A DNA stretch of 24,414 nucleotides from a virus: positions 1 through 24,414 of IMG/VR virus record IMGVR_UViG_3300037963_000895, one strand, 5' to 3'. Position numbers and translations under genes: made by a program. Shown here one piece after another: positions 9,272 to 18,246 of this stretch; position 1 is the first letter of the stretch, and each line of letters begins with the position of its first letter. The notes beneath the pieces were generated by a model. That model was not told the origin of the DNA, did no database searches, and worked only from the letters and a program-made list of their open reading frames with translations.

Positions 9272-9397
9272 TTAAATCTTGAAGTACTTGACCCCCGTTC
9301 CATGGTCAAGCGACATGCGTCTCCATCCGTTATTGGTAACTTGTCCTGATAGACGGATTTCGATGAACGTACGTTTCTTATCCGATTGCTGGTGCTT
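9272..9397 (-). pseudogene. Start-less reading frame downstream of psbA, possible gene remnant
   Basis: Directly after the psbA stop the minus strand reads [18 protein letters not shown], then WRRMSLDHGTGVKYFKI and TAA. The composition looks like real protein sequence, but the frame begins at a TGA inside the psbA 3' end and contains no ATG, GTG or TTG before the internal ATG that would leave only 14 residues. The next gene starts 2 nt after its stop, the spacing seen between genuine genes of this operon. The simplest reading is the 3' remnant of a gene whose 5' part was replaced when psbA and its neighbours were inserted; a non-canonical start cannot be excluded. Confidence 0.4.
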
Positions 9398-17446: not shown

Positions 17447-17761
17447 TCAAACAACGCCATACCAACCGGAGTTGGTCATAGCTGTGTCATTGACGTACCA
17501 GACAAAATCTTTTTGATAGATAGTGTCCGTCTCATCACCAAACTCAGCGAGTAATGCACGCAACCTTGAACGGGTTGTGTTTGTCTTCCAGCCAGCGTGA
17601 CTGACTTTGATCCAATCATCACCGAGTTGTGCAATCTCATTGCCATGTAGATACACATGATGTGTACCCTCTGTGTCCTTGATCACTGAGGTGTTGGCCT
17701 GTGACCAGTGCTGGCAATCGTCATCGATTGCACGACACATAGCTTGTTCGAGCTTGCGCAT
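17447..17761 (-). CDS. Conserved phage early protein, VYLHGN/GWxTxTTRSRL family (104 aa)
   Basis: The product has HHVYLHGNEIAQLGDDWIKV, HAGWKTNTTRSRLRALL and a FVWYV strand. This combination is a recurrent small early protein in cyanophages and other marine phages; its function is unknown. The predicted structure is mixed alpha/beta. ATG 17761 is separated by one nucleotide from a copy of the putative promoter motif, and no ribosome binding site is present, so translation may start on a nearly leaderless message or depend on a longer transcript. Confidence 0.78.
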   Translation of the reverse strand: MRKLEQAMCRAIDDDCQHWSQANTSVIKDTEGTHHVYLHGNEIAQLGDDWIKVSHAGWKTNTTRSRLRALLAEFGDETDTIYQKDFVWYVNDTAMTNSGWYGVV

Positions 17762-17784: not shown

Positions 17785-17838
17785 GGGACTAAGTCCCAGG
17801 CCTGGCGAGGGAGTCGAACCCTCGCTGCACCATCAGGC
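17785..17838 (-). ncRNA. tRNA T-arm-like minihelix 1 with adjacent hairpin
   Basis: On the minus strand, GCCTG (17838-17834) pairs with CAGGC (17804-17800), and GCGAGGG pairs with CCCTCGC around the loop TTCGACT. The result is a 12-bp helix with a 7-base T-loop and an 8-base bulge ATGGTGCA on one side. Twelve base pairs and a TTCRANY loop are the dimensions of a tRNA acceptor/T-arm stack. A second hairpin, GGGAC-TTA-GTCCC (17797-17785), follows. No D or anticodon arm is present, so this is not a normal tRNA. The outer stem overlaps the stop codon of the KTSC gene. Function is unknown; a processing signal is possible. Confidence 0.5.
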
Positions 17839-18111
17839 AGTGATAGGCATCTCGGATGCACTGAGTCCACGAAGTGGAGTGCAGCTACCGAGTAGCCGTG
17901 TCTTGCAATCGAAGGGCAAGAGGTTTGTGTTAACCCAGAAACCAAGGCTCATGTTTGGGTTCATGAGAAGGTTGAGGATTGCACGACGGCTGACGCAGTC
18001 GTACTCGTAGATGTTGCCTTTGGCGTATGCAACTTGCACAACACCACGCAACGGATCAACAACCATACGCTCAACACAGTCAGACGTACGGCAAGGAATG
18101 TTGATGAACAT
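17833..18111 (-). CDS. KTSC-domain-like small protein (92 aa)
   Basis: From ATG 18111 the core MVVDPLRGVVQVAYAKGN followed by IYEYDCVSRRAILNLL and GFWVNTNLL fits a KTSC domain, a short beta-alpha fold in phage and bacterial proteins whose role is unclear, often found beside nucleic-acid enzymes. The C-terminal 30 residues are extra. A TTG at 18132 would add a hydrophobic MFLYFIY segment but has no better ribosome binding site. It is flanked on both sides by T-arm-like RNA structures, which is unusual. Confidence 0.65.
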   Translation of the reverse strand: MFINIPCRTSDCVERMVVDPLRGVVQVAYAKGNIYEYDCVSRRAILNLLMNPNMSLGFWVNTNLLPFDCKTRLLGSCTPLRGLSASEMPITA

Positions 18112-18135
18112 GTAGATGAAATAAAGAAACAATTG

Positions 18136-18203
18136 TTGAGTCCTTGATGACTCAATGACTGGTCAGGGACTCGAACCCTGATGCACGCCGATGCATGCCA
18201 GCC
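18136..18203 (-). ncRNA. tRNA T-arm-like minihelix 2 with adjacent hairpin
   Basis: On the minus strand, GGCTGGC (18203-18197) pairs with ACCAGTC (18163-18157) through six pairs, one of them G-T, with a C-A mismatch next to the T stem. CAGGG pairs with CCCTG around loop TTCGAGT. Between the acceptor-like strand and the T arm is a small hairpin ATGCA-TCGGCG-TGCAT. A perfect 7-bp hairpin TTGAGTC-ATCAAG-GACTCAA (18155-18136) follows directly. The order of minihelix, short hairpin, gene start is the same as at 17785-17838. It lies just before the KTSC gene and after a promoter-like motif. It lacks D and anticodon arms. Confidence 0.5.
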
Positions 18204-18246
18204 TGCCATGAACAAACAATGCGTGTGGCTCCGCAGTGTATATCAA

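Follow-up and report, generated by a model that had tools for sequence, protein, structure and literature searches.

Minimal tRNA-like elements at gene junctions of a T7-like cyanophage and its relatives, with covarying elbow contacts and a possible role in mRNA processing

On the minus strand of a 24.4-kb fragment of a T7-like cyanophage (24,414 nt in full, referred to as the window), a small gene is bordered on both sides by short structures resembling the acceptor and T arms of a tRNA. This raises the question of what such structures are and what they could do between genes. The window encodes RNA polymerase, an integrase, psbA, terminase and thyX. Read on the minus strand from thyX towards the early genes, it presents tRNA-like element B, a KTSC-like ORF, tRNA-like element A and a gene of the Kyano_Gp96 family (Table 1). 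The first-pass annotation had reported two 12-bp acceptor/T-arm stacks, and their coordinates, strand, loops and numbers of base pairs could all be confirmed. The stack of A consisted of 12/12 Watson-Crick pairs and that of B of 12 pairs including a single G-U. The following hairpins lay within 3 nt of both elements with a gene next, as had been described. The inserts between the stems had been taken for a short bulge or mini-hairpin; this was correct for A, whereas B carries a D-arm-like hairpin, which is more than a mini-hairpin. The 5' strand of the outer stem of A overlaps the TGA stop codon of the KTSC ORF (17835-17833). The KTSC label itself stood in part: the PF13619 profile matched 8/9 relatives (best E = 7e-5), but a protein closely related to that of the window reached only E = 0.25. 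A strict descriptor scan of the window returned two matches, A and B, compared to 0.10 per dinucleotide shuffle; loose descriptor scans gave many chance matches, and the later counts are those of stricter rules with shuffles. Upstream of B, the conserved leader (18233-18205) forms a hairpin with the loop GAGCCACA, followed by TTGTTTGYTCATGGCA, and may represent the 5' end of the early transcript.

Table 1. Positions of the tRNA-like elements and neighbouring features in the window
Feature	Position	Strand	Description
Conserved leader upstream of B	18205..18233	-	CGGAGCCACACGC hairpin, then TTGTTTGYTCATGGCA; present in most B loci
tRNA-like element B	18157..18203	-	Outer stem, D-like hairpin and T arm
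Element B outer (acceptor-like) stem	18203-18198/18162-18157	-	GGCTGG/CCAGTC
Element B D-like hairpin	18197-18184	-	CATG-CATCGG-CGTG, loop CATCGG
Element B T arm	18181-18163	-	TCAGGG/CCCTGA; loop TTCGAGT 18175-18169
Hairpin after B	18136..18155	-	7 bp, TTGAGTC-ATCAAG-GACTCAA; one base past element B
KTSC-like small ORF	17833..18111	-	ATG 18111; TTG 18132 is the listed start; phrog_7365
tRNA-like element A	17800..17838	-	Outer stem, 8-nt bulge and T arm
Element A outer stem	17838-17834/17804-17800	-	GCCTG/CAGGC
Element A bulge		-	8 nt between outer stem and T arm; ATGGTGCA; contains GG
Element A T arm	17825-17805	-	GCGAGGG/CCCTCGC; loop TTCGACT 17818-17812
Hairpin after A	17785..17797	-	5 bp, GGGAC-TTA-GTCCC; two bases past element A
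Gene 3' of element A, Kyano_Gp96 family	17447..17761	-	PF23790, E 3.7e-32

Neither element has the anticodon arm or the full cloverleaf of a tRNA gene, since the inserts between the stems measure 8 and 16 nt. ARAGORN called a 93-nt tRNA-Met over B, which is most likely spurious because the program found no tRNA in 39 homologous loci nor in 7 whole phage genomes; these negatives, together with the covariation described below, exclude complete or decayed tRNA genes. At the gathering threshold, Rfam returned nothing at A or B and only Glutamine-II riboswitches elsewhere. The riboswitch of the window (9286-9372, minus strand, 39.4 bits) lies directly downstream of psbA, and others were present in S-RIP2, S-TIP37, P-SSP7 and NATL2A-133. 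Below threshold, B aligned over its full length to the mascRNA-menRNA family RF01684 (19.5 bits versus a gathering score of 42.5). The similarity came mainly from the T arm and the model did not match the B homologues; the family assignment was thus rejected. A T7-type RNase III site, a long irregular hairpin of about two helical turns, could also be rejected, as the elements consist of a T arm and an interrupted outer stem with 12 bp in total. A role of the following hairpins as promoters of the phage RNA polymerase was rejected: in Syn5, the sequence ATTGGGCACCCGTAA, taken here as the promoter of that phage, lies at two sites away from the elements and not at the elements themselves. Neither Rfam nor the open-access literature that could be searched contained a description of such elements in phages.

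The stems were then compared among relatives. All stems covaried in 12 homologues of B: 96% of the alignment cells were paired and 9/17 pairs were altered on both sides, and several pairs showed three different types, even though alignment cells are not independent events. The covariation score was 0.452, compared to 0.139 ± 0.027 in shuffled alignments and a maximum of 0.111 in slid ones, and shifting the partner by one column reduced pairing to approximately 40%. The D stem was paired in 100% of the cells of 26 B-type elements. The compensatory changes that the first-pass annotation had proposed to look for in the 12-bp stems were thereby found, and the two outcomes it had named in advance as contrary evidence, complete tRNAs or uncompensated stem loss in related phages, were not seen. 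The following hairpins also varied, with stems of GCGTC/GACGC, GCGAC/GTCGC or GGGTC/GACCC after B, while GGGAC/GTCCC after A was replaced by TGACAC/GTGTCA or GGACC/GGTCC.

These changes bear on the idea that the elements are relics of tRNA genes or attachment sites which an integration or capture event left behind. Such phages are known to use tRNA genes as attachment sites, and the phages considered here encode an integrase. However, compensatory changes reveal selection on the fold, several elements occur per genome, and different sequences occupy one and the same place. Furthermore, a 25-mer of element A did not occur in any of 84,980 genomes of bacteria and archaea, which removes A as an attachment site or captured host tRNA and leaves the remnant explanation barely credible. 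Downstream of the integrase, a partial tRNA-Leu-like sequence was noticed in S-TIP37 (L045, 4853-5360) and P-SSP7 (L046, 5768-6045); it is probably an attachment site, distinct from the tRNA-like elements.

In the tRNA elbow, D-loop position 19 pairs with T-loop position 56, and position 18 contacts position 55 (PMC4810234). The corresponding pair of element B is 18188-18173, G19-C56. Among the relatives, the D loop CAYCGG went with the T loop TTCGAGT, and CACCGA with TTTGAGT; the 19-56 pair in 26 B-type sequences was GC in 14 and AU in 12, with no mismatches. IMG/VR was scanned with a pattern which left both positions unconstrained. Among the matches listed, there were at least 61 distinct sequences with an intact T stem, part of which already belonged to the discovery set; 37 had G/C, 24 had A/T and none was crossed. 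Crossed combinations were seen in only two sequences among those listed, both lacking the T stem, and a single backbone occurred in both states (A/T 14, G/C 8).

A similar coupling was revealed for 18-55, where D loops ending in AG occurred with TGC T loops (25) and those ending in GG with TTC (11), with no crossed case. A stricter parse gave 38 elements of AG with GC in 14 clusters. Within the 40-nt core, L202 differs from L203 and L204 solely at positions 18 and 55, both of which are changed. When T-loop positions 55 and 56 were left unconstrained, GC was found in 44, TC in 22 and TT in 10 of 89 matches, and such matches were nearly missing in shuffles. From this co-variation we infer an A18-G55 contact. 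The capsid-gene element of S-CBP3 is an exception, combining GG with TGC (CGGCATG with TGCGATC). A second IMG/VR pattern, designed for 18-55, returned mostly anticodon arms of real tRNA genes and was not used as a test; its non-tRNA matches (L361, L363, L396, L398, L402) had GG with TTC. A pattern written for a single AG/GC type of element had no match in bacterial genomes. With a coaxial 12-bp acceptor/T stack and a T loop, and with 19-56 and 18-55 contacts indicated by covariation apart from S-CBP3, the elements are almost certainly genuine minimal L-shaped tRNA mimics under selection, as judged from sequence comparison.

The KTSC relatives mostly carried an element at the same site before KTSC, and many had a further one between KTSC and the next gene. 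The element sequences belonged to several unrelated types, swapped between phages, and the architecture remained constant across the types: an outer stem, then a D-like hairpin or a bulge, the T arm, the following hairpin and the gene. Upstream of the capsid gene, elements built in this way were located in S-TIP37, P-SSP7, Syn5 and S-CBP3, and in many of the 80 capsid loci examined. In MedDCM-S45-C4 an element precedes psbA, and tandem elements were present on contigs outside the T7-like gene order (L208, L211, L213). The elements had been linked to the early transcript in the first-pass annotation; these positions show that they are not confined to the early region. A-type elements were found twice in NATL2A-133 and also in Mycobacterium phage MyraDee, which has two elements. 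The MyraDee elements lie before genes (L049, 47103-49479, minus strand); one includes a 25-nt exact match to NATL2A-133, and TTGACATCGAAC is repeated near them. The strict scan found no elements in T7, phiKMV, HTVC011P and SIO1, and the one match in TM4 was close to the chance expectation.

The length of the stack and its 3' surroundings are informative about function. When stack length was left unconstrained, 12 bp was most frequent (38), followed by 11 bp (28) and 13 bp (12), with none above 14 bp and approximately 0-2 in shuffles. The strict hairpin score was strong in 43/95 elements and not in 52/95; among the strong ones, the hairpin started 1-3 nt past the stack in 42/43, compared to 3 in shuffled sequence. 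An ATG with an ORF followed the elements at a median of 42 nt. After the discriminator position, CCA was present in 0/94 distinct elements, which corresponds to the CCA-less 3' trailer of the RNase Z route. RNase P of many bacteria is helped by a 3' CCA, and its absence here is a point against processing. Position 55 of the G55 variants could not be pseudouridylated, which sets them apart from ordinary tRNA ligands and also counts against processing, as do the junctions lacking an element, the elements with no strong hairpin and the exceptions to the elbow rules. In cyanobacteria and actinobacteria, tRNA genes, including those of elongator tRNAs, mostly lack CCA (PMC5143459); elements without an encoded CCA are therefore as expected for such hosts. 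The elbow is a recognition feature for RNase P as well as for RNase Z, and both enzymes gauge the length of the stack (PMC4810234, PMC4919913), the acceptor-plus-T length being measured from the elbow (PMC4919913). The 12-bp ruler, the covarying elbow, the missing CCA and a hairpin 1-3 nt past the expected 3' cut together strengthen the case for cleavage by tRNA enzymes. On these sequence features, tRNA-style processing, by RNase P at the 5' side and RNase Z at the 3' side, is the likeliest function of the elements, with a probability of roughly 0.6.

In the best explanation, the 12-bp stack mimics the acceptor stem and T stem in the RNA, and two purines from the D-like hairpin of B or the bulge of A dock into the T loop like positions 18 and 19 of tRNA, so that an elbow forms without an anticodon arm. 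Sequence and covariation establish the stems, the D hairpin, the 12-bp length, the elbow contact, the location at gene junctions and the presence of the following hairpin. In the proposed mechanism, host RNase P would cut at the 5' edge, RNase Z one base past the 3' edge, or both, separating the messages. The upstream message would then have its 3' end at the tRNA-like element or immediately upstream of it, and the downstream mRNA would start at the hairpin or not more than 2 nt from it, where the hairpin should protect it against decay that depends on the 5' end. The elements could thus have the role in this phage that RNase III sites have in T7.

The same compact fold with an adjoining hairpin at each junction might instead protect ends or control decay, the elbow-folded stack and hairpin blocking RNase J, RNase E or 3' exonucleases in the manner of exonuclease-resistant RNAs. 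RNase J and RNase E are present in cyanobacteria (PMC10989914), but a roadblock alone needs neither exactly 12 bp nor a site directly before a second hairpin, and this alternative is considered unlikely. Another explanation is that the elements, released or in place, are decoys or regulators of host tRNA enzymes such as RNase P, the CCA-adding enzyme, the ribosome or modification enzymes. The elbow and stack are the features which those enzymes bind (PMC4810234); however, action in trans needs no fixed site about 40 nt before genes, nor overlap with an upstream stop codon. Moreover, the G55 variants avoid TruB. A decoy role is accordingly rated improbable. A transcription signal, in which element and following hairpin form a terminator or attenuator, would agree with the terminator consensus scan, which flagged both following hairpins (3 found, 0.8 expected). 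The tails are nonetheless U-poor (CTTATCGTTT, CAATTGTTTC), and a terminator has no need of a covarying elbow, making this reading quite doubtful as well.

Processing by tRNA enzymes has several known parallels. The mammalian mascRNA, whose anticodon arm is not a normal one, is a substrate of both RNase P and RNase Z (PMC11693755). Like mascRNA and menRNA (from MALAT1 and MEN beta; RF01684), the phage elements combine acceptor and T arms with a reduced D arm, have no working anticodon, and dock two D-loop purines in the T loop (PMC11693755). The mammalian RNAs differ in serving nuclear 3'-end processing of long RNAs and in having an anticodon-like stem, whereas the phage elements are intergenic, occur several per genome and include A-U and A-G elbow variants; no sign of common descent was seen between the two. 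RNase P also cleaves acceptor-plus-T-arm-like structures in M3 RNA, the C4 antisense RNA of P1/P7 and polycistronic mRNAs (PMC11143913), but these are single cases and not a modular series at successive gene junctions.

In the tRNA punctuation of mitochondria and in t-elements, tRNAs or tRNA-like folds located between genes mark RNase P and RNase Z cleavage; most of these are functional tRNAs, whereas the phage elements cannot decode. The early mRNA of T7 carries structured RNase III sites between genes and before the first gene, where the host RNase cuts it into separate mRNAs. The phage elements share this placement, but they have a tRNA-like fold and the T7 sites are long hairpins read by RNase III. 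Since the elements occupy early junctions and the one before the first gene, just as the sites of T7 do, it is plausible by analogy that the elements stand in for the RNase III sites of T7. The standard elbow of cellular tRNA is G18-G19/U55-C56. There is about an even chance that cyanophages, and some phages of hosts with CCA-less tRNA genes, use modular, exchangeable minimal tRNA mimics as general mRNA punctuation replacing RNase III sites, with an elbow code (18,19/55,56) expanded to GG/UC, GA/UU or AG/GC.

With these elements, DNA phages offer a large naturally occurring series of minimal tRNA mimics, with identical junctions and interchangeable sequences. Covariation alone shows selection on the tRNA elbow contact outside tRNA, with an elbow that tolerates A-U at 19-56 and, as co-variation indicates, A/G at 18-55. 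The variants could be used directly as substrates for studying how RNase P and RNase Z recognise their targets. Should the elements indeed be cleaved, it would mean that abundant marine phages process their messages with host tRNA maturation enzymes, and the replacement of RNase III in T7-like cyanophages would become directly testable.

Some junctions were without an element and had other hairpins instead, which would suit a shared function of the junction but does not prove cleavage. At element-less KTSC junctions (L037 after KTSC; L078, L079, L083 and L092 before KTSC), a GTTACA-CT-hairpin-TC-TGTAGC structure was found, whose 3' arm is able to pair with the next hairpin as well; these hairpins resemble RNase III sites or switches. 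In several capsid loci (L131, L135, L140, L176 and others, with S-RIP2 as L043 and NATL2A-133 as L044), an alternative hairpin replaces the tRNA-like element; its stem showed compensated variation around a nearly invariant 15-nt loop, CACCTCAGAGTCGGA, and it had no match in Rfam. Most cyanopodovirus capsid loci also carried a conserved leader, GGATACC...GCCGTC-NN-GACGGTGGGATAGACCACA, after the element and upstream of the capsid gene, which looks like another structured RNA. Larger degenerate tRNA-like folds, with outer stems of 7 bp and shorter and with extra hairpins, were observed before the first gene in NATL2A-133 (L044, 44115-44700, minus strand) and P-SSP7 (L046, 900-1085). A third T-arm type, with the loop ATCGAAT and a partner hairpin loop GTGAT, was present after KTSC in L022, L031 and L036 and before KTSC in L066, L068 and L070, and falls outside the T54 elbow rules.
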